Part shown: piece after piece, positions 45,188 through 63,956 of the stretch
How positions within the stretch are numbered: the stretch's first letter is position 1
Layout: each line of letters begins with the position of its first letter
From: Xenophilus sp. AP218F
GTDB taxonomy: Bacteria > Pseudomonadota > Gammaproteobacteria > Burkholderiales > Chromobacteriaceae
Direction of reading: 5' to 3'
DNA length: 64,000 nt
NCBI GenBank assembly: GCA_002213445.1
Contig: NJIE01000018.1
Location: 23,739-87,738, forward strand
Notes under the pieces: model-generated
Databases searched by the model: none
Told to the model about the DNA's origin: nothing
Seen by the model: only the letters and a program-made list of their open reading frames with translations
Position numbers and translations under genes: made by a program

Positions 45188-45203
45188 TGGCACGCTGTTT
45201 GCA
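45188..45203 (+). promoter_or_regulatory. Sigma-54 promoter of the biosynthetic operon
   Basis: TGGCACGCTGTTTGCA matches the RpoN consensus TGGCACG-N4-TTGCW exactly, with GG and GC at the required spacing. The expected transcription start is near 45214, 30 bp before the first ATG at 45244. Upstream, 45060-45170 holds short GGGAT/ATTCC dyads (e.g. ATTCCTATTTTGGGAT) that may bind an enhancer-binding protein, which is not encoded in the window. Confidence 0.85.
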
Positions 45204-45243
45204 TTTGTCATTTTTGTGATTTTGTGAAATGGCAAAGAGGTAA

Positions 45244-45681
45244 ATGGTGGACATCGCGACAAGCATCGCCGTTCGCGCGGCGGTAGACCACTGGGCGTAT
45301 CTGGTTCGGGACAGCGAGGCGAGCGCCTGCGCGTTGCGGCTGTTCTTCCCGCTGCGCCGGACATGGCGGCAGCCGCATGCTGGCCAGCGCGTGCTGATCA
45401 GCTTTCTGGAAAACGCCGACGGGGCGCGCGTGGAGCTGGTGGAGCCGCTTGCCGAGCACACCCTGCTGCAAAAGCAGCTGGCGGATGCCGGGCGGGACTG
45501 CGTGCCGTACCACCTGTGCCTGCGGGTGGACGATTTTCACGCCGCGCGCGAATGCATGCGCCGCCAGGGCTGGGCGACGCTGACCCGGCCCTTTCCCGCG
45601 CTGGATCCGGCCGAGCTGGCCAGCCATCTCTACCATCCTTCGGCCGGCATGGTCGAAATCATCGGTCCGGCCGCGCCATGA
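45244..45681 (+). CDS. VOC-superfamily (glyoxalase-fold) protein, first gene of operon
   Basis: 145 residues with two beta-alpha-beta-beta-beta modules and the usual metal ligands: His in VDHWAYLVRD, Glu in GARVELVEP, His in PYHLCLRVDD, and Glu in GMVEIIGP. This arrangement resembles methylmalonyl-CoA epimerase and related lyases, which use enolate chemistry. AGAGG lies 5 bp before the ATG; the sigma-54 promoter is directly upstream. In this pathway it may epimerise or cyclise a carrier- or CoA-bound intermediate, or confer resistance. The stop overlaps the next gene by ATGA. Confidence 0.8.
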   Translation: MVDIATSIAVRAAVDHWAYLVRDSEASACALRLFFPLRRTWRQPHAGQRVLISFLENADGARVELVEPLAEHTLLQKQLADAGRDCVPYHLCLRVDDFHAARECMRRQGWATLTRPFPALDPAELASHLYHPSAGMVEIIGPAAP

Positions 45682-46595
45682 TCCGGCTCGCGTCCATTCA
45701 TCGCGGCGATGACGGCGTCGCGCTCTTGCCGCTGGAAGCGCTGGGCGAGACGCACGCGCTGCGTCCGGCGATGGCGCGCACCTTGCGCAAATTCTATGGA
45801 TTGGACACGGTTCCGCAGAGCGCGCGGCGACACGCCGCCTTGTTCGACGAGGCGCTTGACGCTGCCCTGGCCGCCCATCCGGATTTGAGGCGGATGAGCG
45901 GCCAGCTCTGGCACTGCAAGACCCAGACGCAGAATACCCGTTGCCAGGATCCGTGGCTGGGCGCGCTGCTGGCCCGGCACGGCTTGCGCCGTTGGCAGGC
46001 GCAAAGCTGGAGCATGACCCACTGCGCCTCCGGTCTGGCCTTGCTCCACTATCTGCGCCGCGCGCCGTCCGCTGCGCCGGCCTTGCTGCTCACCGGCGAG
46101 AAGAGTTTCCACCCGGCCACCAGCCGCTTGAGCATGGGCGCGCTGGGCGAGCTGCCGCTGGTCGGCGTGCTGCGCGAGGACGCGGCCGGCTGGCGGATCG
46201 CGGATAGCGCGGTGCGGCATCTGCCCGCGTTCTATCCCAGCGCGGCGCATCTGCCCGAAGCGCTGGCCAAGGAACAGCAAAGGATTTTCCCGCAGGCGCT
46301 GCAGCGTTTTCTGGCGGATTTTCTGGCTGGCCGGGAAGCGCCTGACCGAGTGCTGCCCTACAACCTGAACCGTCCGCTGTTGTCGCAGCTGGCGCTTGGC
46401 TTCGGCTGGGGCGAGCGCATGCGGCTGGATACCCTGGCCAGTCACGGCCATCTGTTTTGTTCCGACGTATTCCTGTCTTTTTCCTGTTTCCCGCCGGCGC
46501 CGTCCGAGACGCGGGTCCTGCTGTTCGCCGCCGGGATGGGGCTGACGCTGGCCGCCGTCTGGCTGGAGCGCGGCGATTCTCCCACCGCTAGATGA
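45678..46595 (+). CDS. KAS III-like condensing enzyme 1
   Basis: 305 residues of the thiolase superfamily. The nucleophile Cys116 lies in SMTHCASGLALLHYL. The oxidised-His position reads LPYNLNRPL, so the usual histidine is replaced by Tyr. The Asn position reads SHGHLFCSDVFLSF, with His instead of Asn. Such changes suggest acyl transfer or an atypical condensation rather than standard fatty-acid initiation. The start is fixed by ATGA overlap with the VOC gene. An ACP gene follows 13 bp downstream, its likely partner. Confidence 0.75.
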   Translation: MIRLASIHRGDDGVALLPLEALGETHALRPAMARTLRKFYGLDTVPQSARRHAALFDEALDAALAAHPDLRRMSGQLWHCKTQTQNTRCQDPWLGALLARHGLRRWQAQSWSMTHCASGLALLHYLRRAPSAAPALLLTGEKSFHPATSRLSMGALGELPLVGVLREDAAGWRIADSAVRHLPAFYPSAAHLPEALAKEQQRIFPQALQRFLADFLAGREAPDRVLPYNLNRPLLSQLALGFGWGERMRLDTLASHGHLFCSDVFLSFSCFPPAPSETRVLLFAAGMGLTLAAVWLERGDSPTAR

Positions 46596-46608
46596 AAGGA
46601 AGTTTGCC

Positions 46609-46872
46609 ATGTCGCATCAGGACTATCTGACCCGGGTTGAACAAGCGCTGAGCGAAGTGCTGGAGCAGCCGGTTTCCGGCCTGTCCGAGGCCACCCAGCT
46701 GGACACCGATCTGGACCTGGATTCGGTGACTTTCATGCAGTTCCTGCTGACGCTGGAAGACAAGATTCCGGGCCTGATCTTCAACCCGGATCAGCTGGCG
46801 CAGACCGACTTCAATCGCGTCGGCTCCCTCCTGGAATACATCGCCGATCAACAACTGCCGGCGGAGGCCTGA
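46609..46872 (+). CDS. Acyl carrier protein 1
   Basis: 87 residues with the 4'-phosphopantetheine site Ser39 in DLDLDSVTFMQFLL and typical acidic helices (LSEVLEQPVSGLSEATQLD; TLEDKIPGLIFNPDQL). GAAAGGAAG precedes the ATG. It is encoded between KAS III-like 1 and two acyl-CoA dehydrogenase-like genes, which suggests that these act on its bound acyl chain. A phosphopantetheinyl transferase is not encoded in the window. Confidence 0.9.
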   Translation: MSHQDYLTRVEQALSEVLEQPVSGLSEATQLDTDLDLDSVTFMQFLLTLEDKIPGLIFNPDQLAQTDFNRVGSLLEYIADQQLPAEA

Positions 46873-46873
46873 C

Positions 46874-47527
46874 ATGTCGGCGCGTCTGAATGGCCGGGCG
46901 CTGGACGAATTGCGCGATCTGGCCCGCGCCCAGCCTTTGGCGCGCGCGCTGGCGCGGATGACCGCGGCGCTGGCCGGGCGCGAGGGCTATCTGTTGTGGC
47001 GCGGCCACGCGCTGTTGCCGAGCGAGGCGGGCCTGCCGCTCGTGGACGCGGCGGCGGCGGAGCGCGCCCCCGGCGAGCTGACCTTGTGCGACGACCCGCT
47101 GGCGGAAGCCCACGGCCTGCGGCTGGCCGTCGCCGCGGGCGACGAGGCGCGCGGCATCGAAGCCGGCGAGCTTGGCCTGTGCGTGCTGGCGCTGCGTTGC
47201 GGGCTGGCGCTGCGCATCCTGGACATGAGCCATCGCCATCTGGCGGAGCGCTGGAGTTTCGGCAAGAAAACGCTCAGCCATCAGCTGGTGAAGGCCAGCT
47301 TCTCCACGGTGCATGCCGGTCTGGAACAGCTGCGCGAACAGGCGCGCCTGCGGCTGGAGCAAGGCTGGCTGCAGGGGCTGGAGGAGGAGCAGCGCGAATT
47401 GAGCGAGCTGACCGGCCAGGCCGAAAAACTGATGGGCGGCCACGGCTATCTGCAGGACGGCAGCCACGGCGTGTCCTATCTGTCGATGCTGCTGTATTCG
47501 GTATATGGAGCGGAATGTGAAGCATGA
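46874..47527 (+). CDS. C-terminal-domain-only acyl-CoA dehydrogenase-like protein
   Basis: 217 residues. The second half matches the helical C-terminal domain of acyl-CoA dehydrogenases (HRHLAERWSFGKKTLSHQLV, SFSTVHAGLEQLREQARL, LMGGHGYLQDGSHGVSYLSM). The N-terminal and beta domains are missing and the first ~85 residues are not recognisable. It overlaps by 23 bp the full-length homologue downstream, so it may be a structural partner. On its own it could not bind FAD in the canonical way. Confidence 0.68.
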   Translation: MSARLNGRALDELRDLARAQPLARALARMTAALAGREGYLLWRGHALLPSEAGLPLVDAAAAERAPGELTLCDDPLAEAHGLRLAVAAGDEARGIEAGELGLCVLALRCGLALRILDMSHRHLAERWSFGKKTLSHQLVKASFSTVHAGLEQLREQARLRLEQGWLQGLEEEQRELSELTGQAEKLMGGHGYLQDGSHGVSYLSMLLYSVYGAECEA

Positions 47528-48647
47528 TCTGGGCCGACTGCTGACGCGGGAGCGCGAGGCTCACCGCGCGCTGGGCGCGACGCTGGAGCGCCAGCCGGCG
47601 CGAGTGGAGGCGATGCGCGATTTCGCCTTCGCCTGGCAAACCAACAGCATGGCGCTGCCGACGGCGCGCAACCGCCATCCCTTCGTGTTGCCGGACGGCC
47701 GCGAGCTGCGCCGCCTGAACACCCGCCAGCGCGCCGAGCTGTACGAGGCGCTGGGCTACCTCGACCCCAACCTGCTGTTCGCCGCGCCGGGCGGCAGCAT
47801 GGCCGGCTTCGTGGTGGACGGGTTGGGCGACGAGGCGACGCGCGAACGCTTCCACGCGCATTTCGAAGGCGAGCTGTGCTGGACCTTTTTCGCGCTGAGC
47901 GAGCCCGCGGTCGGCTCCGACGCCTCGCGGCTGGCCGCCCGCGCCCGCAAGGTGGACGGCGGCTACCTGCTGGACGGCGAAAAATACTTCATCGGCAACG
48001 GCGCGCTGGCGCCTCTGGGCGTGGTGTTCGCCCGGACCAACGACGGCCCGTTGGGGCTGGAAGCTTTCCTGCTGGAGACGCGCGGCCTGGCGGGGTTTTC
48101 CGCGCGGCCGCTCGCCCCAAGCGGCTGCCCGGCCTGCAATTTCGCCCACCTGAAGCTGGACGGCGTATTCGTGCCGGACAGCCATCGTCTGGGCGGCCAT
48201 CTCAAGCCGACCGAGCGCTTTTCGCGCTCGGCCTTGCTGACCTTCGACGCGCTGCGCCCCTGCGTGGCGGCCGCGGCGCTGGGCGTGGCCGCCAGCCTGC
48301 TGGATCGGGCCGAGGAAACTTTCCGGGCCGACGCGCGCTGGTTGCGCGCCGGCCGCGCGCGGCTGGAGGCCATGCGCGGGCTGCTGTTCGCCTGCTGCGA
48401 CGATTTCGACCAGGGCCGCCGCGCCGGGCGCCGCGCGGGCTTGATGAAGGCCGCAGCCACGGCGTTGGCCGAAGCGCTGGCGCTGGAGACGCTGCACCGC
48501 GCGCCGGCCGGCGCGGCGCTGGACTGGCCGTGGCTGGCCAAGGGCTGGCGCGACGTCAAGGCGTTCGAATACACCGAGGGCACGCGCTTCATCCATTGGC
48601 AAAACGCCGCCGCCGGCTTCCAGGAGCGCGAACATGGCGCGCGCTGA
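47505..48647 (+). CDS. Acyl-CoA dehydrogenase-like flavoprotein 1
   Basis: 380 residues. The FAD/substrate-binding beta domain is clear: CWTFFALSEPAVGSDASRLA then ARARKVDGGYLLDGEKYFIG-NGA. A helical C-terminal domain follows (LLTFDALRPCVAAAALGVAA ... FEYTEGTRFIHWQNAAAGF). The usual catalytic Glu near the end could be in YTEGTRF. In secondary metabolism such enzymes desaturate carrier-bound acyl or aminoacyl groups (e.g. prolyl to pyrrolyl). It overlaps both neighbours. A second similar enzyme is encoded at 54045. Confidence 0.82.
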   Translation: MERNVKHDLGRLLTREREAHRALGATLERQPARVEAMRDFAFAWQTNSMALPTARNRHPFVLPDGRELRRLNTRQRAELYEALGYLDPNLLFAAPGGSMAGFVVDGLGDEATRERFHAHFEGELCWTFFALSEPAVGSDASRLAARARKVDGGYLLDGEKYFIGNGALAPLGVVFARTNDGPLGLEAFLLETRGLAGFSARPLAPSGCPACNFAHLKLDGVFVPDSHRLGGHLKPTERFSRSALLTFDALRPCVAAAALGVAASLLDRAEETFRADARWLRAGRARLEAMRGLLFACCDDFDQGRRAGRRAGLMKAAATALAEALALETLHRAPAGAALDWPWLAKGWRDVKAFEYTEGTRFIHWQNAAAGFQEREHGAR

Positions 48648-49170
48648 CGATTTGCCCGGCCGCGTTCTGGCCGAAGGTCGGCTGGAGGCGGCGCAGCGCG
48701 CCTGGCCGCTGGACGGGATCGACGCCGCCTGGCTGGAGGCCTGGCTGTGCCGCGCCGACGCCGAACCGGACTGGCGCTACGGCTACGCGCAGGAAAACGG
48801 CGCGCTGTTTCCGGCGGCGCTGGCCACGCTGCTGGCGAGCGAAGCCGCGCGCCATCCCGGCCTCGCCCTGCTGTACCAGCACCGCGGCGGCTGGCGGCAA
48901 AGCAAGACGCCGCTGCTGCAAAAGCTGCTGGCCGGCGGCGGCTTTCCCGGCCCGGCCTACGCCTTGCGCGCGCAGGAGGCGGGCTGGTCGCCCGCCGCGC
49001 TGGAGCTGGCCGCCTGCCTGCTGGCCGACGGCGTCCCCTGCCTGTTGCTGGACGATCTGACGCCCCGTCTCGGCGCCGACCCCGTCGCGCCCCCCGCGCG
49101 CCTGCGCTACTTGCTGCTGTCGGCAAGCGAGGCCGCGCCTTCCCTCTCATCGGAGCCGCAACATGCTTGA
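48634..49170 (+). CDS. Unknown 178-residue protein, possibly ketosynthase-fold-like
   Basis: I do not firmly recognise it. Segments GGGFPGPAYALRAQEAGWSP and ALELAACLLADGVPCLLLDD loosely resemble the core of small beta-ketoacyl-synthase-like proteins (Ketoacyl-synt_2 type) without an active-site Cys. It overlaps the dehydrogenase by 14 bp and the MATE gene by 8 bp, so it is a true operon member. A scaffold or dimer partner is possible; confidence in function is low. Confidence 0.55.
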   Translation: MARADDLPGRVLAEGRLEAAQRAWPLDGIDAAWLEAWLCRADAEPDWRYGYAQENGALFPAALATLLASEAARHPGLALLYQHRGGWRQSKTPLLQKLLAGGGFPGPAYALRAQEAGWSPAALELAACLLADGVPCLLLDDLTPRLGADPVAPPARLRYLLLSASEAAPSLSSEPQHA

Positions 49171-50512
49171 ACATCGTTTGACTACCTCCGCGCCGCTGGC
49201 GCGCGGCAGCCTGTGGCCGGCCATTCTGGCGCTGGCCTGGCCGATGATGCTGAGCGCCGTGCTGGCCGGCGTGCTGCAAAACGGCCAGGTCTGGGTGCTG
49301 GGCCGCGACGGCAGCGATAGCCGCGCGCTGTACCTGTTGTCGATGCTGCAACCGTATTTCCTGCTGTTCATCGCCTTCATGGAAGGCCTGGCGGTGACCA
49401 ATCAGGTCTTCAGCGCCCGCTCCGCGCGGCAATGGCCGCGCCGCCGGGTGTGGCACAGCACGCTGTGGCTGATCCTGGCCGGCGCGGCCGCGACGGCGAT
49501 CCTGGCGCCGGCGGCTTCGCTGCTGGCGCGCCACGCGCCGACGATGGCCGGGGCCGACATGCGCGAAGTGTGGCGCGCGCTGCCCTGGTATCTGGGCTCG
49601 CTGCTGCCGCTGTTGTGCTTCGAAATCGTCAACGCCGGCCTGCGCGGCCAGGGCCGGACGCTGCCGGGGCTGGCGCTGTCGCTGTCGGCGGCCTGCCTGA
49701 ACCTGGCGTGCTGCTACGCGCTGTTCGCCTACGGCGGGCTGGGCTTCGAGGCCATCGTCGCGGCCAACGCCTTGTCCTACGGCGTGTTCTGCCTGCCGCT
49801 GGCCTGGATTCTGCGGCGCGCCGTCCGCGACGGCGAGGCCGGCCCGGCGGCCGCTTTCCGCGCCCGGTTGCTGGCGATTCTTCTGGACGCCGGCCTGCCG
49901 GTGTTCCTCACCATCGTGGTGGCGTTCGCCAGTTCGGCCGTGGTGTTCCCGGCGCTGGCCGGCTTGAGCGGCGACAACAGCGTCGCCTTCCTGCTGGTGA
50001 TCAAGCTGCGGATGCTGTTCGTGATCCCGGCGGTGGCGCTGGGGTCGGCGGTGGCCATTCTGGCCAACCAGCGGCTGGAGGGCGATCCGGAAGGCCGCGG
50101 CGGCCTGCTGCGCGAGGGCCTGCTGCTGGTGGCCTGCGTCTATCTGGCGCTGACCGCGCTGGCCTGGTGGCAGCAGCACGCCCTGATCGACCTGCTCAGC
50201 CGCAGCGCCGGCGTGCGCGCGGCGGGCTACCAGCTGATGCAATGGCTGCTGCCCACCTTCTTCCTGACCGCGCTGAGCACCATGTTGCAAACCTTGCTGG
50301 AGCAACTGGGGCGCGGCAAGCAGGTGCTGCTGGCCACGCTGGCGCTGGAGCTGGGCCTCGCCGCCGCCATCTTGCTGGCGATCGCCCAGGCGCGCGCCCT
50401 GGACTGGGTGCTGGGCTGCATGCTGGTTTGCGCCCTGCTGTACGCGGCGGTTTTCCTGCGCGAATTCTTCCGGCTGGCCAGAACGCCGAGCGAGGCCCGC
50501 CATGATGCATAG
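49163..50512 (+). CDS. MATE-family multidrug/metabolite exporter
   Basis: 449 residues with about 12 membrane helices. The MATE start is typical: RGSLWPAILALAWPMMLSAVL then AGVLQNGQVWVLGR. FEIVNAGLRGQGRTLPGLAL lies at the middle of the first half and ILANQRLEGDPEGRG in the second. It uses Na+ or H+ gradients to export organic compounds. Its place inside the operon suggests product export or self-protection. Confidence 0.87.
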   Translation: MLEHRLTTSAPLARGSLWPAILALAWPMMLSAVLAGVLQNGQVWVLGRDGSDSRALYLLSMLQPYFLLFIAFMEGLAVTNQVFSARSARQWPRRRVWHSTLWLILAGAAATAILAPAASLLARHAPTMAGADMREVWRALPWYLGSLLPLLCFEIVNAGLRGQGRTLPGLALSLSAACLNLACCYALFAYGGLGFEAIVAANALSYGVFCLPLAWILRRAVRDGEAGPAAAFRARLLAILLDAGLPVFLTIVVAFASSAVVFPALAGLSGDNSVAFLLVIKLRMLFVIPAVALGSAVAILANQRLEGDPEGRGGLLREGLLLVACVYLALTALAWWQQHALIDLLSRSAGVRAAGYQLMQWLLPTFFLTALSTMLQTLLEQLGRGKQVLLATLALELGLAAAILLAIAQARALDWVLGCMLVCALLYAAVFLREFFRLARTPSEARHDA

Positions 50513-51470
50513 CCTGGGCTACCCCTTGCTGTGGCTGTGGGCTGGCGGCCATCAGCGCTACAACCGGCTGATGGCGCGGCTGGGGCGCAAGCCGCCGGCG
50601 GTGGCCAAGGTGCGCATCCGGCCGGAAACCCATTACCGGCGCGCGTGCGACCAGCTGCGCCGGCTGGACATGGCCCTGCTGTGGCGCTGCTCGCGGCCGC
50701 GGCTGGCCAGGCTGGTGATCGGCTTGTTCGAAACCGCGCTGCGCACGCAGGGCAAGGCTTCGGAGCAGCGCTTTCTGGACGGCCTGCGCCGCGAATGGCT
50801 GCCGCTGGACGACGGCGGCGCGCCGGTCTACCTGGCCGGCGATCCGACGGCCCCGGCGGTGCTGGTGGCGCACGGCTGGGAAGGCCGCGCCGGCATGATG
50901 CAGACGGTGTGCCAGCCGCTGCTGGACGCCGGCTACCGCATCATTCTGCCCGAGCTGTACGCCCATGGCGGGGCAGACGGACGAAGCGTCTCGTTTTTCG
51001 CGCTGGCGAACCAGTTGCGGCGGGTGGAAGCGCGCTACGGTCCGGCGCATTGCGTGGTGGGACACTCCGCCGGCGGGCTGATCGCGGCGCTGGCGATACA
51101 GGATGGTCTGCGTTGCCGGCGGCTGGCGACGATAGGCGCGCCGTTCAGCCTGCGTCGCCTGCTGCGCCGCCATTTCGACCTGTGCCGGCTGTCCGCCGCG
51201 CAGCAAGCCTACTGTCTGGGGAGTTACCGGGCGCGCTACGGGCTGAGCGAGGCGGACCTGGACGCCGGACGCTGGGCGTCGATCGCCCAACCCTGGCTGG
51301 TTTGCCACGACCGTTACGATCAGACGGTGCCGCTGGCCGAGGCCGAGGCGGCGGCGCTGGCCCCCGGCGCCAGGCTGTGCCTGACCCGCGGCGGCGGCCA
51401 CCTGGGCGTGCTGCGCAACCCGCAGCTGCTGGCGGCGCTGCGGGCCTTCGTCGACGAGGAGCGGCCATGA
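50502..51470 (+). CDS. Alpha/beta hydrolase
   Basis: 322 residues. Nucleophile elbow GHSAGG with Ser189, Asp in CHDRYDQTVP and His in RGGGHLGVLR form a complete triad. The oxyanion/HGWE loop is LVAHGWEGRAGMM. The N-terminal ~110 residues are basic and helical. It may release or cyclise the carrier-bound product as a thioesterase, or hydrolyse an ester or amide protecting group. It overlaps the MATE gene by 11 bp and the next by ATGA. Confidence 0.83.
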   Translation: MMHSLGYPLLWLWAGGHQRYNRLMARLGRKPPAVAKVRIRPETHYRRACDQLRRLDMALLWRCSRPRLARLVIGLFETALRTQGKASEQRFLDGLRREWLPLDDGGAPVYLAGDPTAPAVLVAHGWEGRAGMMQTVCQPLLDAGYRIILPELYAHGGADGRSVSFFALANQLRRVEARYGPAHCVVGHSAGGLIAALAIQDGLRCRRLATIGAPFSLRRLLRRHFDLCRLSAAQQAYCLGSYRARYGLSEADLDAGRWASIAQPWLVCHDRYDQTVPLAEAEAAALAPGARLCLTRGGGHLGVLRNPQLLAALRAFVDEERP

Positions 51471-52402
51471 ATCCGCTGCGCATCGTCGATATCGGCGCGC
51501 ATGTGCCGGCCAGCCGCCAGACCGTGGCCGAGGCGGCGCGCGAACTGGCCTTGCCGGCGATGGAAGGCCGGCTGTTCGAGCGTTTCTACGGCCTGTCCTC
51601 CCTGCCTTACGAAGCCGGCGGCAGCTTGTGGTCGCTGCATCAGCCGGCGGTGGCGGCGCTGGCGGCGCGCCATCCGGAGCTGGGCCGGAGTCTGGACCTG
51701 ATCGTCTTCACTCACACCCTGCCGGCGATCACGCCCCTGCATGGCGGCCGGCTGGCGGCGCGGCTGGCCGCCATGCTGGATTGCCGGGCGGAGGTGATGG
51801 ACCTGTCGCTGGGCCACTGCGCCACCGCGCTGGCCGCCTTGCCGCTGCTGGCCGCGCGCCTCAAGCCGGGCCGCCAGGCGCTGCTCCTGGCCGGCGAGCG
51901 CGGCTTCCACCCCCAGCTGCGGGTGCTGCCGGCCACCACCATCATGGGCGAGGCTGCTTGCGCGGTGCTGTTGCAGCCGGATGCCGGCGGCTTTCTGGTG
52001 GAGGGCGTGCACGCCCGGCACGACGGCCGCTTCTGCCGCAACAGCGGCCACCAGCGCGAAGCGGACGGACCCGCCTTCGCCGCCCACTACCCGACGCTGC
52101 TGGTGGCGCATCTGCGCGATTCCCTGCGGCGCTTCGGACTGACGGTGGACCAGCTCAAGCTGGTTTTGCCGCACAACGTCAACGCGCCGTCCTGGCAAGC
52201 CGCGCTGCGGCAGTTGGCATGGCCGCAGGACAAGCTGTACCTCGACAACATCGCGCGTTACGGCCACTGCTTCGGCGCGGACCCTTTCCTCAACTTGCGG
52301 CACGCCCTCGCCGAAGGGCGGCTGGCGCGCGGCGACCGGGCCTTGCTGGTCGCGGTGGGGATGGGCGCCACGCTGGCGTCGGCCTTGGTGCGCCTGATCT
52401 GA
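51467..52402 (+). CDS. KAS III-like condensing enzyme 2
   Basis: 311 residues. Nucleophile Cys118 lies in SLGHCATALAAL; histidine H236 in LPHNVNAPSW is retained. The third position reads RYGHCFGADPFLNL, with His where FabH has Asn. The N-terminus (MNPLRIVDIGAHVPASRQTV) is typical for the family, and GERGFHPQLRV resembles the KAS III dimer strand. A gap of 50 bp and a GGAGA site separate it from ACP 2. Likely condenses or transfers an acyl group to or from an ACP. Confidence 0.78.
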   Translation: MNPLRIVDIGAHVPASRQTVAEAARELALPAMEGRLFERFYGLSSLPYEAGGSLWSLHQPAVAALAARHPELGRSLDLIVFTHTLPAITPLHGGRLAARLAAMLDCRAEVMDLSLGHCATALAALPLLAARLKPGRQALLLAGERGFHPQLRVLPATTIMGEAACAVLLQPDAGGFLVEGVHARHDGRFCRNSGHQREADGPAFAAHYPTLLVAHLRDSLRRFGLTVDQLKLVLPHNVNAPSWQAALRQLAWPQDKLYLDNIARYGHCFGADPFLNLRHALAEGRLARGDRALLVAVGMGATLASALVRLI

Positions 52403-52452
52403 AGTTTTGGCGGAGAACCGCGGCCGATCGCCGGCCGCATAGGGAGAACGAT

Positions 52453-56010: not shown

Positions 56011-56876
56011 ACCGTTTGCTGTGCCATGTTCCGTCGCGCCGGCTGCCGGGCGCGGACATCCTGGCCGCCGCCGGCGAGAGCCGCGCGCAGGCGCGCATCT
56101 TCGGCAAATTGTTCGGCTTCGAATCGGCGGCGGCCTACGCCTCGCCGGCAGAGGTTGAAACCGCCTGGCTCGAACTGTTCGGGCAGATCGGTGCGGCGGC
56201 CGCGCCGGACGCGGTGATCGAAGTGCGCGGCCTGCCCTTGCCGGCGAGCCTGCCCGAGCATCCGGCGCTGGCCGGCGCGCGGCGTTTCCGCATCGACCAG
56301 TTCAACTGCGCAGGCCTGTTCTGGGGGCTGGATCTGGCCGAGCGGCTGCTGCGGCAGGGCCGCGCCCGGCGCGTGCTGCTGCTGGCGGGCGAGGACAGCA
56401 GCGCCTTGCCTCCGGCGCATCGCTACTGGGCGGGCTGCACCCTGATCGGCGACGCCTGCGCCGCGCTGCTGCTGGACGCGGAGCCGGGCGGGGCGCGCCT
56501 GGAGCGGCCGCGGCTGGCGCGGCGCAACCAGCATCACCAGGGACTGTACGGCGCGCCGGAAGAGACGCAGGCCTTCTACCAGGCCCACGACGACATGGTG
56601 GACGCGCTGCTGGCGCAAATCGGTTTCGATGCCGAACGCGACGCGCTGCTGCCGCACAACATCAATCAGCTCAGCTGGGTGCAATACAGCCGCCGCCGCG
56701 GCCTGGCGCTGGAACGGATACGGCGCGATCTCCTGCCGGCTGTCGGCCACTGCTACGCGGCGGACCCGCTGCTGCTGCTGCGCCGCTGGCTGGACGAGGG
56801 CGAAGGCGAGGCGGCGGCGCTGCTGTCCATCGGCCTGGGCGCTTACAGCGGCGCCTGCATGGCGAGGCGCGCGTGA
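56001..56876 (+). CDS. KAS III-like condensing enzyme 3 (PqsC-like partner)
   Basis: 291 residues. Nucleophile Cys103 lies in QFNCAGLFWGLDL; H219 in LPHNINQLSW; third position VGHCYAADPLLLL, with His instead of Asn. It is shorter than FabH, as PqsC-type partners can be. It overlaps the nucleophile-lacking gene upstream and the next KAS III-like gene by a few bases. Likely forms a heterodimer with 55171-56010 and joins an acyl group to an amine or a carbon nucleophile. Confidence 0.76.
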   Translation: MRINRLLCHVPSRRLPGADILAAAGESRAQARIFGKLFGFESAAAYASPAEVETAWLELFGQIGAAAAPDAVIEVRGLPLPASLPEHPALAGARRFRIDQFNCAGLFWGLDLAERLLRQGRARRVLLLAGEDSSALPPAHRYWAGCTLIGDACAALLLDAEPGGARLERPRLARRNQHHQGLYGAPEETQAFYQAHDDMVDALLAQIGFDAERDALLPHNINQLSWVQYSRRRGLALERIRRDLLPAVGHCYAADPLLLLRRWLDEGEGEAAALLSIGLGAYSGACMARRA

Positions 56877-57799
56877 TGCGGGTGCTGGCGATACGGGACA
56901 GCCGCGCGCTGGGGCGGGCCTGGCCGCTTGCCGAGCTTGCCGAGCGTTATCGGCTTTCCGAGCGCGATTACCGCATCTTCTCGCGCTTTCACCGCTTCGA
57001 GAGCGCCTGGCTCGCGCCCGAGGCCGGCTTGCCGCAACTGCTGGCGGCGGCGCTGGACGGCCTGCCGCCGGCCGCGCCGAGCTATCTGTGCTACAGCCAT
57101 TCGCTGCACGACAACAGCGCGCGCGGCGGGCGGCTGCTGGCCGAGCTGGCGCGCCGCTACCGAAGCGCGCCGGAGCGTCTGGCGGTGAGCCAGGGCGCCT
57201 GCGCCTCCGGCGCGCTGGCCCTCAGATGGCTGCAACGGCAGCTGCGGCCGGGCGAGCAGGCGGTATGGCTGGCCGGCGAGAAATGTTTTCACCCGATGGT
57301 GCAGTACGTGGGGCAAACCGCCTGCTTCGGCGAGGCCGCGGCGGCGGTGCTGCTGGAGGCCAGTATCGGACCCGGCTGGCGGCTTGTGCGGGCGGAGAGC
57401 GCCGTCATCGGCGGCTTCGCTTCGCGGCTGGTGGCCACCAGCCGCGAGCAGGAAAACCGCTACGACCACGCTTTTTTGCCGGCGATGGCCGCACTGACGG
57501 CGCGCGCGCTGGCCGGCGCGGGCATCGGGCCGGAGGCGGTCGCCGCCATCCTGCCGTATCACGTCAGCCCGGTCAGTTTCGACCGGCTGGCCGAACTGAG
57601 CGGCATCGGCCGCGAGCGGGTGTTCCGCGAGCACCTCTACCGGCTGGGGCACTGCTTCTGCGCCGACGCCTTCATCAACCTGGGTTCGCCCGCCTTGGGC
57701 GCGGCGCTGACGCCGACCCGGCGCTTCGCGCTGGCGCTGGCCGCCGGCATCACCGGCTCGCTGGGCGCGCTGTTGTTCGAATATCGAGAGGAAGCCTGA
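56876..57799 (+). CDS. KAS III-like condensing enzyme 4
   Basis: 307 residues. Nucleophile Cys109 lies in SQGACASGALAL. The second catalytic segment reads LPYHVSPVSF, in which the usual His is shifted one residue (Tyr-His instead of His-Asn). The third is LGHCFCADAFINL. GEKCFHPMVQY resembles the strand also seen in KAS III-like 1 and 2. ATG 56876 (TGATG junction) is preferred over GTG 56873 in the same frame. It belongs to the same lineage as the other three by shared GHCF-type motif. Confidence 0.76.
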   Translation: MRVLAIRDSRALGRAWPLAELAERYRLSERDYRIFSRFHRFESAWLAPEAGLPQLLAAALDGLPPAAPSYLCYSHSLHDNSARGGRLLAELARRYRSAPERLAVSQGACASGALALRWLQRQLRPGEQAVWLAGEKCFHPMVQYVGQTACFGEAAAAVLLEASIGPGWRLVRAESAVIGGFASRLVATSREQENRYDHAFLPAMAALTARALAGAGIGPEAVAAILPYHVSPVSFDRLAELSGIGRERVFREHLYRLGHCFCADAFINLGSPALGAALTPTRRFALALAAGITGSLGALLFEYREEA

Positions 57800-57801
57800 C
57801 C

Positions 57802-59361
57802 ATGAAGCCAAGCCACAACCTGATTTTGCTGATCGACTACCTGCGCCGCGGCGCGCTGGCGCGCCCGGAGGCAACCGCCTTGCTGGCCGAAGGCCGGGAG
57901 ATGACCTACGCCGAACTGTGGCGCGCCGCGCGCGCGCTGGCCGGCGAAATGGCGCGGCGCGGCGTGCGCCGCGGCGACCGGGTCTTGCTGTTTTTGCCCA
58001 ACTCTCTCGAATACGCGGCGGCGTTCTGGGCGATCCAGTACCTGGGCGCGGCGGCGGTGCCGGTCAGCCCGGACACCAAGGCCGCCAAGCTCGCCTGGAT
58101 GCTGGACGACTGCGAGCCGCGCGCGGCGCTGGCCGACGCCGCCTTGCGCGCCACGCTGGAGGAGGCCGGCGCGGCTTGCCGCCACCGCTTCGAGCGCTTG
58201 TGGCAGGGCGAGGGCGACAGCCTGCTCGGGCCGTGGCCGGAGGCGGCGGATGTCCCGCCCGGCGGCGGCGCGCTGGACCAAGACCTGGCCGCCATCATCT
58301 ATACCTCCGGCTCCACCGGCTTTCCCAAGGGCGTGATGCTCAGCCAGCGCAATATGGTGGCCGCCTCGCAGTCGGTATCGCAATACCTGGGACTGGAGGC
58401 GTCGGACCGCATCCTGTGCGCCATTCCGCTCACCTTCGATTACGGTCTGCACCAGTTGACGATGAGCGCGCTGGTGGGCGCCAGCGTGATCATCGAAGCG
58501 TCGTTCGCCCAGCCGCTATTCACGCTGGCGCGGCTGGTCAGGTTCAAGGCCACCGTCTTCCCCATCGTGCCCACCATGCTGGCGCTATTGGCGCCCATCG
58601 CCGGCCGCTTCGACTTCTCCAGCGTGCGCAAGGTGACCAATACCGCCGCCGCGCTGCACCCGGAGGCGATCGACCAGGCGCGCGCCATCTTCCGCAACGC
58701 CGAGCTGTTTTCCATGTACGGCCTCACCGAATGCCACCGCTGCACCTATCTGCCGCCGGCGCAGCTGGACGCGCGCAAGGGCAGCGTCGGCGTGGCCATT
58801 CCCAATACCGAGTTGTGGCTGGTGGATGAAGCCGGCCGCCGCCATACCCGCGCCGCCGAGGGAGAACTGGTGATCCGCGGCGCCACTGTGATGCGCGGCT
58901 ACTGGAACAACCCGGCCAAAACCGCGGAAAAGCTGCGACCGGGCCCGCTGCCGGGGGAAATGGTGCTCTACACCGGCGACTGGTGCCGGCTGGACGATGA
59001 GGGCTATCTGTATTTCCTGGCGCGGCTGGACGAGGTGCTCAAGGTCAAGGGCGAGAAGGTGGCGCCCAAGGAGATCGAAGCGGTATTGCAGCAACACCCC
59101 GACATCGAACTGGCGGCGGTGATCGGCATCGACCATCCGGTTGACGGTCAGCGGCCGCTGGCCTTCGTCCAGCCGCGGGCCGGCGCGCTCAGCGGCGAGG
59201 CCGACTGGCGCGCCTGGTGCCAGGCGCGGCTGCAGCCTTTCATGCTGCCATCTCGGATTTTGGCGCAGATGGCGTTGCCCAAGAACGGCAACGGCAAGAT
59301 AGACAAGCTGGCGCTGCGCGCCGGCCTGGAAACCGAACCCGCCAGCCCGGCGCTGGCTTGA
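57802..59361 (+). CDS. AMP-forming acyl-CoA/acyl-ACP synthetase-like ligase
   Basis: 519 residues of the ANL superfamily. P-loop IIYTSGSTGFPKGVM near residue 170; A5-like SMYGLTECHRCTYLP; YTGDWCRLDDEGYLYFLARL with hinge Asp; C-terminal catalytic Lys in LPKNGNGKIDKLAL. The start is typical for long- or medium-chain acyl ligases (MTYAELWRAARALAGEMARR). It would adenylate a carboxylic acid and pass it to CoA or, more likely here, to ACP 3 encoded 15 bp downstream. GAGAGGAAG precedes the ATG. Confidence 0.87.
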   Translation: MKPSHNLILLIDYLRRGALARPEATALLAEGREMTYAELWRAARALAGEMARRGVRRGDRVLLFLPNSLEYAAAFWAIQYLGAAAVPVSPDTKAAKLAWMLDDCEPRAALADAALRATLEEAGAACRHRFERLWQGEGDSLLGPWPEAADVPPGGGALDQDLAAIIYTSGSTGFPKGVMLSQRNMVAASQSVSQYLGLEASDRILCAIPLTFDYGLHQLTMSALVGASVIIEASFAQPLFTLARLVRFKATVFPIVPTMLALLAPIAGRFDFSSVRKVTNTAAALHPEAIDQARAIFRNAELFSMYGLTECHRCTYLPPAQLDARKGSVGVAIPNTELWLVDEAGRRHTRAAEGELVIRGATVMRGYWNNPAKTAEKLRPGPLPGEMVLYTGDWCRLDDEGYLYFLARLDEVLKVKGEKVAPKEIEAVLQQHPDIELAAVIGIDHPVDGQRPLAFVQPRAGALSGEADWRAWCQARLQPFMLPSRILAQMALPKNGNGKIDKLALRAGLETEPASPALA

Positions 59362-59376
59362 TCAAGGAAAAGCATC

Positions 59377-59661
59377 ATGAGCATGGATGAATCGCGTTTC
59401 GAACGGCAGGTCATCGAGGCCATCGCGCGGGTGATGGAGATGGACGACACCGCGGGCCTGGACGGCGCAACCCGGCTGGAAGCCGACATCGGCTTCGACA
59501 GCGGCTTGTTCATCGAACTGCTGATGTATCTGGAAGAAGGCCAGCCCGGTCTGGCGCTGGACCCGGTCCTGCTCAACGCCGAGGACTTCGTCACGGTGGC
59601 GAGCGTCGGGCGCTTCCTCGCGCGCCAGCTGGCGGCGCAGGGCCTGCTGGAGGAAGCGTGA
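59377..59661 (+). CDS. Acyl carrier protein 3
   Basis: 94 residues. Phosphopantetheine Ser42 lies in ADIGFDSGLFIELLMYL. It is acidic and helical (FERQVIEAIARVMEMDD). Encoded between two ANL ligases, so it is the probable acceptor of one of them. AAGGAAA lies before the ATG. The stop overlaps the next gene by ATGA. Confidence 0.88.
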   Translation: MSMDESRFERQVIEAIARVMEMDDTAGLDGATRLEADIGFDSGLFIELLMYLEEGQPGLALDPVLLNAEDFVTVASVGRFLARQLAAQGLLEEA

Positions 59662-61181
59662 TGGCCGACGCCGATTTTCGCGGCCTGTTCGCCGGCTTTC
59701 GCGCCTGCGACGCGCCGGCCTACCTGCACCCCGACGGCGACTTGAGCTACGACCAGCTGTTCCGCGGCGCGCTGGCGCTGGCGCTCAGGCTGGCGGCCTG
59801 CGCGCCGCGCGGCCAGTTGCTGCTGGTGGGCGAGCGCGGCCGGCGCAGCCAGATCGCCTGGTGGGCCAGCCTGCTGGCCGGCTGGACGCTGTTTCCGCTC
59901 GCCGGCGACACCCCGCCGGCGCGCTTGCGGCAGGTGGCGGCCAGCGCGGCGCGGCCATTGTGGCTGTGGAGCGAGGCGGAGCCGCCGCCGCAGGACGCGC
60001 CCTGGCTGGCGTGGCCCGAGGCGGAGACTGACGAGGCGCGGCTGGCGGCGCAATGGAACGCGTTGCTGCGGCTGCCGGCGGCGGACCCGGAAGACATCGC
60101 CTACCAGATGTTCTCCTCCGGCACCACCGGCCAGCCCAAGGGCATCGCGGTGCGCTACCGCAACCTTGCCGGCTTCGTCGACTGGATGCGGCGGCTGGAC
60201 GCGGAGTGGGGCGGCGCCGGCGTGGTGAGCGGCATGGTGCGCCCCTGCTTCGATGTGTCGCTGTTCGAGATGTGGCTTGCCTGGCTCGGCCGGCAGGCGC
60301 AATCGGCGCTGGCGGCGCGGGACTTTCACAATACCCGCCGCTATCTGGAGCGCTTCGCCGAGCACGGCCTGCGCGCGTGGGTGTCCACGCCCTCGCAGGC
60401 GCACGCCTATCTGGCCGACCCGCGTTTCAACGCCCGGACGCTGCCTGGCCTGCGGGTGTTCCTGTTTTGCGGCGAAACCCTGTCCAAGCCGCTGCTGGCG
60501 GCCTTGTGGCAGCGTTTCCCGGCGGCGCGGGTATTCAACAGTTACGGGCCGACCGAATGCGCGGTGGCGGTCAGCTGCGCGGAACTGACGCCGGCCGATC
60601 TGGCCTCGCCGCTGCCCCTGAGCGTAGGCCGGGCGCGCCCCGGCGCGACGCTGTCGCTGCGCCCGCTGCCCGGCCTGCCGCCGGGGCGGGGCGAGATCGT
60701 CATCGGCGGCGAGGCGGTCGGCGCGGGCTATCCCGGCCAGTCGGAGCTGAGCGCGGCGAGATTTCGCGACGGCGGCTACCTGAGCGGCGACATCGGCAGC
60801 GTAGGCGAAGACGGACGCTTTTATTTCTGGGGCCGGCAGGACCGAGAGTGCAAGGTGCTGGGCGCGCGGGTGGACCTCAACGAAGTGGAGCGGCACCTGC
60901 AAAGCCTGCCGGGCGTCGGCGAGGCCGTGGTGGAGCCCTACCAGCTGCGCGGCCAGACCCGCGGCCTGCGCGCCTGGCTGCGCGGCCCGGACGCCGCCGC
61001 CCTGCCGGCGCTGGCCGCCCTGGCGGCCGAGGAGCTGCCGCGCCACCTGCTGCCGCGCTTCTGGCACGCGCTGAGCCAACCCGCGCTCAACCGCAACGGC
61101 AAGCTGGACCGCCAAGCCCTGATCGATCACCCCCTTCACCACGCGGACTATGTCTATGCGCCTGATACGTTCCCTGCTTGA
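59658..61181 (+). CDS. Stand-alone adenylation enzyme 1 (DltA/A-domain-like)
   Basis: 507 residues. MFSSGTTGQPKGIAVRYRNL is the P-loop. FNSYGPTECAVAVSC, YLSGDIGSVGEDGRFYFWGR and the C-terminal Lys in NRNGKLDRQAL complete the ANL signature. It is closer to amino-acid-activating stand-alone A domains (DltA, PigI type) than to acyl-CoA ligases, judged by the DRECKVLGARVDLNEVE segment. It may load an amino acid onto ACP 2 or ACP 3. It overlaps the next ligase by 32 bp. Confidence 0.84.
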   Translation: MMADADFRGLFAGFRACDAPAYLHPDGDLSYDQLFRGALALALRLAACAPRGQLLLVGERGRRSQIAWWASLLAGWTLFPLAGDTPPARLRQVAASAARPLWLWSEAEPPPQDAPWLAWPEAETDEARLAAQWNALLRLPAADPEDIAYQMFSSGTTGQPKGIAVRYRNLAGFVDWMRRLDAEWGGAGVVSGMVRPCFDVSLFEMWLAWLGRQAQSALAARDFHNTRRYLERFAEHGLRAWVSTPSQAHAYLADPRFNARTLPGLRVFLFCGETLSKPLLAALWQRFPAARVFNSYGPTECAVAVSCAELTPADLASPLPLSVGRARPGATLSLRPLPGLPPGRGEIVIGGEAVGAGYPGQSELSAARFRDGGYLSGDIGSVGEDGRFYFWGRQDRECKVLGARVDLNEVERHLQSLPGVGEAVVEPYQLRGQTRGLRAWLRGPDAAALPALAALAAEELPRHLLPRFWHALSQPALNRNGKLDRQALIDHPLHHADYVYAPDTFPA

Positions 61182-62625
61182 CCATCTTGGCCAGCCGACG
61201 CTGGCTCTGGCTGGTCCCGACGGCGAGTGCGGTTTTGACCGGCTGGGCGCGCGCGCCGGCGCGGTCCAGGCGGCCCTGCGCCGTCTGCCTGCCGGCGCCG
61301 TCCTGATCCACGGCCACAAGGAAGCCGACGCCGTGGCGGCGATGCTGGCCTGCGCGGCGGACGCGCGGCCGTTCTGCTTCGTCGATCGCAGCCAGCCGCC
61401 GGCCCGCGTCGAGCGGGTGGCGCGCATCGCCGGCGCGGTCTGCCTGATCGCCTGCGGCGAGCCGCCGGCCTGCGCGCTGCCGACGCTGCGCGCCGCCGAT
61501 CTCGCCGACGCGCCGCTGTCGCCGGGCGCGGACGCGCCGGACGAGGCGGTGTTCTACTACATCTTCACCTCCGGCAGCAGCGGCGAGCCCAAAGGCATCG
61601 CCATCAGCCGCGGCAACTTCGCCGCCTTCGACGACTGGTACGGGCCGCAGTTGGCCATCTCGCCCGGCGACGGCCTGCACCTCAACCACGCCAACCTGGC
61701 TTTCGACATGGGCATGCTGGACCTGTGGCCGGTGCTGTCGCGCGGCCGCGGCGTGCTGATGCTGGATCACGCCAACAACGCGTTGCCGCGGCAGAATCTG
61801 CGCCTGATGCAGCGTTACGCCGCGCGCCTGCGCTCGGCGATGGCCACGCCGTCCTTCATGGCCACGCTGTGCCGCGACGCCCTGTTCCGCGCCGAGGGCT
61901 TCCCGGCGCTGGCCGATATTTACATCGCCGGAGAAGCCGCGCCGCCGGCCTTGTGCGCGCAGTTGTTCGAACGCTTCCCGGCCGCGCGCCGCTGGAACGG
62001 CTATGGGCCGAGCGAAACCACCTGCATGAGCCACACCCAGGCGCTGGCGCCGGAAGTGCGATCGGCGGCGGCGCTGTCCAGCTTCGACGCCGCCAGCGCG
62101 CATTGCCGCGTCGAGGTGTGGAACGCCGCGGGCGAACCGGTGATCGGCGAAGCGGGCGAGGTGGTGATTTTCGGCCCGCAGGTGGCGGGCGGTTATCTGC
62201 CGGCGTCCTTGCCGCAAAACCGCGCCTTCGGCGAGCGAAACGGCGAGCGCTATTACCGCAGCGGCGACGGCGGCACGCTGGACGCGGACGGCCGCCTGTG
62301 GCTGCACGGCCGGCTGGACCGGCAGGTGAAGATCAACGGCAACCGGGTGGAGCTGGCCGAGATCGAAAGGCGCGCGCTGGCCTGCCCCGGCGTGGAAGAG
62401 GCGGTGGCGATGGCGCATCAGGACGACGGCGGCGTCGAATTGCTGCTGTTCGTCGGCGGCGCGGCCGAGGCGGCGGCGCTGGCCGGCTACCTGGCTCGCC
62501 ACCTGCCGCCCTACATGCTGCCCAGGCGCATCTTTCACAGCCAGGCGCTGCCCTTCAACCGCAACGGCAAGATAGACCGCGCGCGCCTCCTGGCCGAGGC
62601 CTCGCGCGCTCAGGAGGTCGCATGA
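61150..62625 (+). CDS. Stand-alone adenylation enzyme 2 (DltA/A-domain-like)
   Basis: 491 residues. YYIFTSGSSGEPKGIAISRG is the P-loop. ANLAFDMGMLDLWPVLSRG resembles substrate-pocket strands of DltA-like enzymes. WNGYGPSETTCMSHTQAL, YYRSGDGGTLDADGRLWLHG, RQVKINGNRVELAEIE and NRNGKIDRARLL follow. It is related to but clearly different from the preceding ligase, so it probably activates a different amino or hydroxy acid. ATG 61150 lies 32 bp inside the previous gene; ATG 61156 is possible. The stop overlaps the P450 start by ATGA. Confidence 0.84.
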   Translation: MSMRLIRSLLDHLGQPTLALAGPDGECGFDRLGARAGAVQAALRRLPAGAVLIHGHKEADAVAAMLACAADARPFCFVDRSQPPARVERVARIAGAVCLIACGEPPACALPTLRAADLADAPLSPGADAPDEAVFYYIFTSGSSGEPKGIAISRGNFAAFDDWYGPQLAISPGDGLHLNHANLAFDMGMLDLWPVLSRGRGVLMLDHANNALPRQNLRLMQRYAARLRSAMATPSFMATLCRDALFRAEGFPALADIYIAGEAAPPALCAQLFERFPAARRWNGYGPSETTCMSHTQALAPEVRSAAALSSFDAASAHCRVEVWNAAGEPVIGEAGEVVIFGPQVAGGYLPASLPQNRAFGERNGERYYRSGDGGTLDADGRLWLHGRLDRQVKINGNRVELAEIERRALACPGVEEAVAMAHQDDGGVELLLFVGGAAEAAALAGYLARHLPPYMLPRRIFHSQALPFNRNGKIDRARLLAEASRAQEVA

Positions 62626-63956
62626 CGCTCGCCATTCCCGAGTTTTCCTTTTCCAGCCGCCAGTTGGCGGGGTCGGGCCTGCTGCCCATCCTGGACCGGG
62701 CAGTGGCCCGGCACGGCACGCTGACGCGCCTGCGCGACAGCGAAGGCGGCGAGCTGGTGCTGTTGGCCGACGCCGGCCACGCCCGCTACTGGTCGTCCCA
62801 TCCGGAGAGCTTCATCAAGGACGTGGACCGGCCCAGCGCTTCCGCGGCCGTGGTGCGGCTGTTGCTTGACGACGCGCTCACCGCCACCCGCGACGGCGAA
62901 GAGTGGCGGCGCTCGCGCATCATGACCGCGCCGCTGGTCAACCACACCGCGCCCTACATGACGCGCGACAACCACGTCTGCGCGCGGCAGTTGGCGGACA
63001 GGCTCAAGGCCGGACCGACGCTGACCGAGCTTTCCGGCGCGTGCGATGCCTGGGCCATCCAGCTGGTTTGCCGCCCCCTGATGGGGCCGGGCATGGGCGA
63101 GGAGACCGCCACCGCCTTCGCCCACGTGTTCCGCCGCGGGTTCTACCAGATCCTGATGAAGGCCGCGCAGGCCGGCGACTGCCGCGGCCTGGCGCAAGAT
63201 CCGGACTTCCTGGCATTGCGCGGACACATGGACGAGCTGACGCGCCGCCTGCTGGCGCTGACGCCGGAGCCGGACAGCATGGTCGGCCGCCTGCTCGCCT
63301 GGCTGGGGCCGGACGCGGACCCGGCGGAAATCCACCGGGTGGTGCGCAACACCGTGGTCGGCAACTTCGCCGCCAGCGCCGACAATACCAGCGCCGCGTT
63401 GCACTGGAGCCTGCTGCACCTGGCGCAGCGGCCGGATCTGCAACAGGCGCTGCGCGAGGAGGCGGCGGCGCTGGACTACCGCGACTGGGACATGCAGCGC
63501 GCGCCGCTGGCGCTGGCCTGCGTGCGCGAGGCGCTGCGCCTGACGCCGGTGTCGCCGGTGGTGGAACGCACCTGCGTCGCGGAAACCGAGCTGGACGGCT
63601 ACCGGTTGGCGCCGGGCCAACCGGTGCTGTTCGCGCCCTGGATCGTGCAGCGCAGCGAGCGCTACTGGCCGCAGCCCTTGTCCTATCGCCCGGAACGCTT
63701 TCTGGAGCGGCCCAAGCCGGAGCCGGGCACTTATTTTCCTTTCGGCGCGGGCAAGCGCGTCTGCGTGGGCATGAACCTGGCGCTGGCGCAGCTGACGCTG
63801 GCGGTGTCGCTGCTGCACCGCGAGCTGGCCATCCGGCTGGACCCGGACAGCCGGCCGGTGGACCGCCAGCCGGTTTTCCGCAGCAATCTGCTGCCGCGCG
63901 GCGAAGTGCGCTTCGCCTTGACCCCGCTGTCGGCGCGGGCCGCGATGCCGGCCTGA
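62622..63956 (+). CDS. Cytochrome P450
   Basis: 444 residues. Heme-binding FPFGAGKRVCVGMNLALAQ with Cys381; ExxR in VREALRLTPVSP; I-helix GNFAASADNTSAALHWSLL; PERF-type segment YRPERFLERPKPE. It is an intact bacterial P450 needing external ferredoxin and reductase, which are not encoded here. Likely oxidises a late or carrier-bound intermediate. It is the last gene in view; the operon may continue beyond the right edge. Confidence 0.9.
   Translation: MTLAIPEFSFSSRQLAGSGLLPILDRAVARHGTLTRLRDSEGGELVLLADAGHARYWSSHPESFIKDVDRPSASAAVVRLLLDDALTATRDGEEWRRSRIMTAPLVNHTAPYMTRDNHVCARQLADRLKAGPTLTELSGACDAWAIQLVCRPLMGPGMGEETATAFAHVFRRGFYQILMKAAQAGDCRGLAQDPDFLALRGHMDELTRRLLALTPEPDSMVGRLLAWLGPDADPAEIHRVVRNTVVGNFAASADNTSAALHWSLLHLAQRPDLQQALREEAAALDYRDWDMQRAPLALACVREALRLTPVSPVVERTCVAETELDGYRLAPGQPVLFAPWIVQRSERYWPQPLSYRPERFLERPKPEPGTYFPFGAGKRVCVGMNLALAQLTLAVSLLHRELAIRLDPDSRPVDRQPVFRSNLLPRGEVRFALTPLSARAAMPA

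Follow-up and report, generated by a model that had tools for sequence, protein, structure and literature searches.

A putative 20-gene operon for carrier-based peptide assembly without a condensation domain in Xenophilus sp. AP218F

Gene Content and Organisation

What could be built by an operon that has several free carrier proteins and amino-acid-type ligases but no condensation domain, and by which enzymes would the building blocks be joined? The question is raised by a 64,000-nt stretch of DNA from Xenophilus sp. AP218F (referred to here as the window; contig NJIE01000018.1, positions 23,739 to 87,738), which carries 20 plus-strand genes, lettered A–T, at 45244–63956. The gene products comprise three carriers, five proteins of the ketoacyl synthase III (KAS III) fold, three acyl-CoA-dehydrogenase (ACAD)-like proteins, a BtrK-type pyridoxal phosphate (PLP) decarboxylase and three ANL ligases, as well as an α/β hydrolase, a MATE exporter, a cytochrome P450, a VOC protein and protein F, which was not assigned to a family. 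Fourteen of the 19 gene junctions overlap; the remaining five are gaps of 1–50 nt. Pfam and NCBIfam scans found no condensation or polyketide synthase (PKS) domain among the 20 proteins, and a modular non-ribosomal peptide synthetase (NRPS) or PKS was rejected, since the ligases and carriers are encoded by separate genes and condensation–adenylation–thiolation modules are missing. The gene set, its common direction, the overlaps and the lack of a modular PKS or NRPS had all been described in an earlier sequence-only reading of this DNA, and these descriptions are borne out.

The 20 genes appear to constitute a single operon, whose enzymes would assemble a short peptide on free carriers; judged from gene content and conserved residues, this mechanism as a whole is somewhat probable. 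The predicted product is a peptide or amide containing dehydro-β-alanine, which narrows the amine, imine or heterocycle proposed by the sequence-only reading.

Ligases, Decarboxylase and Carrier Proteins

Ligase P (57802–59361) is an ANL ligase of the VinN type. Its nearest stand-alone solved relative is VinN (3wvn, E 6.7e-67), multi-domain gramicidin synthase entries scoring higher by summed domains. The residues reported to recognise aspartate in VinN, Asp230, Ser299 and Arg331, correspond to D213, T281 and R313 of P, which are invariant in 5/5 rows; the mapping was made via a Streptomyces homologue aligned to the solved VinN chain. Since the VinN-type residues are kept, the side-chain carboxyl of aspartate is predicted to be the activated group, and P would be an isoaspartyl-carrier ligase. 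The other two ligases, R (59658–61181) and S (61150–62625), are DltA-like by profile; R reaches 217 bits with the DltA hidden Markov model (cut-off 476), and S was assigned from NCBIfam and alignment. The pocket of R, DVF-S-L/I-C-S/T-VA, is near-invariant in 7/7 rows and that of S varies; both were read by eye against what we take to be the adenylation-code positions.

Decarboxylase K (52748–54061) matches the Pfam type III PLP decarboxylase family and has BtrK as its closest solved relative (PDB, E 5e-79). It is followed by L (54045–55187), an acyl-ACP dehydrogenase-like flavoprotein (PF00441, E 6e-12). In three plasmid relatives, from Tritonibacter, Rhizobium and Gemmobacter, K and L form a single reading frame, suggesting that they act in sequence.

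The carriers are C (46609–46872; PF00550 above cut-off), the divergent J (52453–52755) and Q (59377–59661; PF00550 just above cut-off). The serine is kept in 5/5 rows for C and 6/6 for Q, and J keeps a (D/N)S serine in 6/6 rows. J adjoins K and Q adjoins P in all six plasmid relatives inspected.

KAS III-Like Proteins

Proteins B (45678–46595), I (51467–52402), N (56001–56876) and O (56873–57799) keep the catalytic Cys of FabH; the Asn of FabH is replaced by His, with Asp five residues on (GHxxxxD). The KAS III-like acyltransferase ChlB3 is reported to have His296 and Asp301 with the same spacing (PMC9573744). I and N also keep the other (PHN) His of FabH. The alignment used L005 and L013 as FabH references; row L021, a FabD-like frame, was left out. 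Pfam matches agree for I (PF08541, E 8e-20) and N (PF08545 and PF08541), and lie below cut-off for B (ACP_syn_III_C) and O. An ordinary FabH was rejected: Asn is lost, and even the best-scoring protein, I, attains only 43 bits where the family cut-off is 249.

The fifth protein, M (55171–56010), has a predicted KAS III fold but lacks the catalytic Cys and Asp and has mostly lost the His, as seen in an alignment of 36 of the 60 related database proteins with the window's own M. Neither M nor carrier J has a significant Pfam or NCBIfam match. M is probably a dead KAS III that pairs with its neighbour N. PqsB/PqsC is a precedent for such a pair of dead and active KAS III proteins. In a Rahnella locus (L022), another M-type protein of about 303 aa is encoded between K and O (16288–17199) and is closer to the Pseudomonas proteins, so there may be two kinds of dead KAS III paralogue.

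Proposed Pathway

The substrates, type of bond, order of steps and product that we infer are as follows. P would load aspartate, via its side-chain carboxyl, onto a carrier; J and Q are the candidates for this role because of their conserved positions next to K and P. K would decarboxylate the aspartyl-carrier to β-alanyl-carrier, and L would then dehydrogenate the β-alanyl unit to dehydro-β-alanine. R and S may each load an amino acid, one of the two being small and alanine-like. Aminoacyl or peptidyl groups would be taken up on the Cys of B, I, N and O and handed to the amine of the following unit on its carrier, forming an amide, with dead M probably paired with N. The D/E proteins and P450 T could oxidise the chain, hydrolase H could release it, and the MATE and ABC pumps could export it. 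The P residues and the Cys/GHxxxxD pattern of B, I, N and O agree with the enzyme logic of the sequence-only reading, in which acids are activated on free carriers, decarboxylated and dehydrogenated there and then linked by KAS III-type enzymes.

A broader proposal, advanced tentatively, is that KAS III-like acyltransferases, partly as active/dead pairs such as N with M, make every amide bond across the three carriers and represent a class spread by plasmids. Such a class would be a third general route to carrier-based peptides, beside condensation domains and iterating ligases. If KAS III-like proteins do make the amides, they would provide a small, free-standing peptide-assembly toolkit, easier to engineer than megasynthases. 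If dehydro-β-alanine products are made, they could be light-switchable.

Comparison with Known Pathways

The likenesses described here rest on kinds of enzyme and not on sequence homology to Afc or Bol proteins. The closest known system is AFC-BC11 (afc) of the Burkholderia cepacia complex, reported in JACS in 2025 as a condensation-free peptide with dehydro-β-alanine (PMC12186527); in the literature searched, no other condensation-free pathway built from these parts came with in vitro data. As reported, afc shares with the window a VinN-type adenylating enzyme, a free carrier, a PLP decarboxylase, a dehydrogenase, KAS III-like proteins with Cys/His/Asp and the lack of a condensation domain. 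Its PLP decarboxylase is reported to act on carrier-bound aspartate, and the dehydrogenase is expected to give dehydro-β-alanine (PMC12186527). The afc cluster is described as having a sole carrier protein, a fatty acyl-AMP ligase (FAAL; AfcA), a citrate synthase (AfcS) and an O-methyltransferase (AfcT) (PMC12186527), whereas the window encodes three carriers (C, J and Q), two DltA-like ligases, four Cys/GHxxxxD KAS III-like proteins with a dead one, a P450, a MATE exporter and a VOC protein. No Pfam domain of a citrate synthase or O-methyltransferase is present in the 20 proteins, and none is annotated inside the cluster in the six relatives. Beside AfcA, the ligases of the window are VinN-like (P) and DltA-like (R and S), as judged with profiles that included no FAAL model.

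The bolagladin (bol) cluster of Burkholderia gladioli is reported to contain VinN-like BolO, the acyl carrier protein BolC, BtrK-like BolN, ACAD-like BolQ and KAS III-like BolM and BolP (PMC7756342). These enzymes are proposed to give one N-acyl-dehydro-β-alanyl unit (PMC7756342). However, bol continues with a classical modular NRPS, of which the window has none, and BolM and BolP are reported to have Ser and Thr in place of the Cys that B, I, N and O keep (PMC7756342). ChlB3 and CerJ have a thiolase fold, and ChlB3 is reported to have Cys and His-x4-Asp like B, I, N and O (PMC9573744); the acyl acceptor of these two proteins is the thiol of a carrier or the hydroxyl of a sugar, whereas those of the window would form amides.

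The VinN/VinO/VinL and BtrJ/BtrK/BtrI proteins of vicenistatin and butirosin biosynthesis are reported to place an amino acid on a free carrier, followed by α-decarboxylation, as proposed here. The vicenistatin unit is reported to start a polyketide, and the ACAD/KAS III-like joining set does not appear in the available parts of the vicenistatin and butirosin descriptions. In butirosin, the unit decorates an aminoglycoside. Solanimycin was dropped from the comparison, its residues being reported as dehydro-α-alanine derived from serine.

The logic of the pathway is therefore not unprecedented; the window holds a larger, differing version of condensation-free, carrier-based peptide assembly and is not an afc cluster. 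The view that no described pathway has this gene set holds for the set as a whole, for which no description was found in the literature searched (mainly titles and abstract openings, with subscription journals mostly outside); it does not hold for the core, which resembles bolagladin (2020) and AFC-BC11 (2025).

Distribution of Related Loci

A tblastn search with K against 72,556 plasmid records led to six loci that were examined. By best assignment at E 1e-4, the genes shared out of 20 number 19 in Rahnella H145, 17 each in Tritonibacter mobilis and Agrobacterium vitis VAR03-1, 16 each in Rahnella aceris and Rhizobium sp., and 15 in Gemmobacter fulvus, where the end of the record cuts the locus. 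Identities of the window proteins to these loci are 25–59%. M (E 1e-5) and L (E 1e-25) match an identical set of 16 of the plasmid records, ten of them Rahnella. The locus had been called an orphan, a description that does not survive these matches; besides this genome, plasmids of alpha- and gammaproteobacteria carry the larger version of the pathway.

Among 7,997 scored candidates, 60 database proteins are related to M at E 1e-5; 83 are related to L at E 1e-40. By name alone, without regard to gene context, the relatives of M and L come from Pseudomonas, Lonsdalea, Vibrio, Phaeobacter, Pseudovibrio, Azospirillum, Serratia and Xenorhabdus. In the sampled genomes, M was found in 1/399 of the order and 1/369 of the class, each time only the window's own, and K (E 1e-40) in one of 19 genomes of the genus, its own, and in none of the 18 congeners. 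A scan of genome contigs with K gave only three distant loci. No afc or bol locus was recognised among the sampled genomes when searched through P and K.

K-type matches occur in 88 of the 349 genomes of one family, read as Burkholderiaceae. Fourteen loci were taken from these 88: the eight best-scoring and six others without an internal stop, one of which loci (L100) spans only 7.7 kb. A P-like ligase lies within 3.3 kb of the K-like gene in all 14, and none of the 14 has a KAS III-like or ACAD-like match (E 1e-6). The P–K pair is common and the full gene set is not. These Burkholderiaceae pairs are possibly exosortase-associated pairs. P homologues of 49, 49 and 45% identity (L068–L070; also L071) have no K match within the surrounding 19–20 kb.

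Rahnella aquatilis HX2, a biocontrol strain used against crown gall, also has homologues of K, L and M, on plasmid CP003404.1. Its antibacterial substance against the crown-gall agent has been partly characterised, to judge from a title cited in PMC9015054; a link between this substance and the homologues is a candidate one. On a plasmid of Streptomyces sp. NBC_01208 (L024, 15010–19920), a BtrK-like decarboxylase, a holo-ACP synthase, a hotdog protein, a VinN-like ligase, a carrier, an ectoine synthase and EctA are encoded; this is another small carrier-based cluster, possibly with an ectoine-like product.

Promoter, Regulation and Plasmid Context

A sigma-54 (−24/−12) promoter-like site, TGGCACGCTGTTTGCA, is located on the plus strand at 45188–45203, starting 56 nt upstream of gene A. 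The sequence-only reading had placed a sigma-54 promoter ahead of the operon, and the site is a perfect match, the window's only one, to TGGCAYRN4TTGCW. With 0.13 such sites expected and at least one in 12/100 shuffles, the site alone is modest evidence. Genome-wide, six perfect sites were found, against one for a reversed control pattern.

In Rahnella H145, the cluster lies beside genes of a phosphopantetheinyl transferase, a PAS kinase, a sigma-54 regulator and an ABC exporter, and one perfect and one one-mismatch sigma-54 site precede the HlyD gene. The best matches of the Xenophilus genome to the Rahnella regulator and phosphopantetheinyl transferase are on another contig, C34. Identities between C34 and Rahnella are 51% for the regulator, 59% for the ATPase, 37% for the permease, 40% for the PAS kinase and 45% for the phosphopantetheinyl transferase; no HlyD match was found on C34. 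A second perfect sigma-54 site precedes the regulator/exporter operon of C34. The C34 regulator has a match (E 1e-100) in 6 of the 18 congeners, at 44–48%, which is lower than the 51% to that of Rahnella; the other 12 have none. Type VI secretion genes (TssF, TssG, a ClpB-like ATPase and ImpA_N) lie beside the sigma-54 regulator/exporter operon on C34 (L067, 1–14000).

Upstream of the biosynthetic genes are a Rep3-type initiator (42350–43834, minus strand), a ParA gene (39956–40789, minus strand) and iteron-like repeats at 44075–44599, consisting of ten copies of a 19-nt unit. Together, they likely form the replication and partition region of a plasmid; the operon is thus probably plasmid-borne here too. 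The contig that carries the window (C11, 87,738 bases) has no terminal overlap that would show it to be circular. On visual inspection, C34 and C11 both begin with what resemble parts of VgrG-type genes, possibly assembly-breaking repeats.

Alternative Explanations

Several observations weigh against the condensation-free peptide pathway proposed here or against its regulation by sigma-54. P has Thr (T281) where VinN has Ser299. The PHN His is missing from O, which has Tyr at this position, and from some B proteins. DpsC, which makes C–C bonds, is also reported to have His at the FabH Asn position, so GHxxxxD is compatible with Claisen chemistry. For AFC-BC11, formation of the β-alanine amides is reported to be the work of a ligase, AfcQ, and not of a KAS III-like protein (PMC12186527). 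The contig stops 44 bases past T, so 3′ genes may be missing, and no end overlap shows a junction between C34 and C11. None of seven operon starts examined in relatives has a sigma-54 site with up to one mismatch in the upstream 200–400 nt, the Rahnella biosynthetic starts included, which means that sigma-54 control is not family-wide; the A. vitis and Gemmobacter clusters have AraC-type genes beside them instead.

The behaviour of AfcQ leads to the main rival. As AfcQ is reported to couple aspartates iteratively with no other enzyme, P, R or S may likewise do so: the ligases would form the amides by attack of carrier-bound amines, leaving the KAS III-like proteins to no more than shuttling the chain or releasing it. 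Direct acylation of an aminoacyl-carrier is reported for VinM of the vicenistatin pathway. P is of the VinN type. However, four triad-bearing KAS III-like genes in one cluster would exceed the need of a single release step, and a new amide is reported to arise from AfcL and Lys-CoA; we consider this division of labour unlikely.

It is rather doubtful that the KAS III-like proteins make C–C bonds, β-aminoacyl starters being extended with malonyl units and cyclised to a pyrroline, pyrrole or similar heterocycle, a product closer to the one first guessed for this locus. Among solved families, profiles place FabH nearest, I and N retain both the Cys and the PHN His of FabH, and DpsC (Ser-His-His) is reported to catalyse such condensations. 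All four Cys-bearing paralogues, however, have His and Asp instead of the FabH Asn, none of the 20 genes was recognised as encoding an acyltransferase domain or a ketoreductase, and the two DltA-like ligases suggest amino-acid chemistry.

K itself is closest to BtrK among solved proteins, and R resembles loaders of single amino acids, as would suit a butirosin-like module that makes a γ-aminobutyryl-carrier from glutamate and adds an aminoacyl side chain to another molecule, giving no free peptide. This is improbable: P is nearest to VinN with the aspartate-recognition residues kept, and none of the 20 genes was recognised as belonging to sugar or aminoglycoside biosynthesis. The cluster could also be related to the exosortase-A-associated ligase/decarboxylase pair (TIGR03098/TIGR03099) and act in surface polymer or protein acylation. 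In favour of this, P scores 394 bits and K 382.8 bits with those models, and P lies within 3.3 kb of K in all 14 Burkholderiaceae loci. The reading was rejected as very improbable, since both scores fall below the curated cut-offs (592.35 and 478.45), the 20 genes include none recognised as an exosortase or polysaccharide gene, and the 14 loci lack KAS III-like and ACAD-like matches.

Other Genes of the Operon and the Window

The remaining genes of the operon encode proteins with supporting or less certain roles. Gene A (45244–45681) encodes a protein of the VOC/glyoxalase superfamily (PF13669, E 4e-12). D (46874–47527) is a truncated ACAD-like protein, recognised by its C-terminal domain (PF00441, E 7e-6) and its orthologues, and E (47517–48647) is an acyl-CoA/acyl-ACP dehydrogenase-like flavoprotein (PF02770 and PF00441). 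The best profile match of E is cyclohexane-1-carbonyl-CoA dehydrogenase, with 68.5 bits against a cut-off of 650. It resembles the prolyl dehydrogenases PigA (63 bits, cut-off 500) and RedW (53 bits, cut-off 650) only weakly, and a pyrrole is therefore not proposed.

F (48634–49170) has divergent counterparts in the relatives and no Pfam or NCBIfam match; when its profile was compared with those of the KAS III set and of M, the statistical P values were 0.09 and 0.13, which gave it no identity. G (49163–50512) is the MATE exporter (PF01554), H (50502–51470) is the α/β hydrolase, a candidate thioesterase (PF00561), and T (62622–63956) is the cytochrome P450 (PF00067, E 2.5e-43).

Elsewhere in the window, within 1–25000, a Baseplate_J protein (7218–10787) suggests a phage-tail-like apparatus. 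The frame pairs 924–1370/2922–3368 and 361–573/2359–2571 (minus strand) agree in length and codon-position GC, which suggests a duplicated stretch of about 2 kb.

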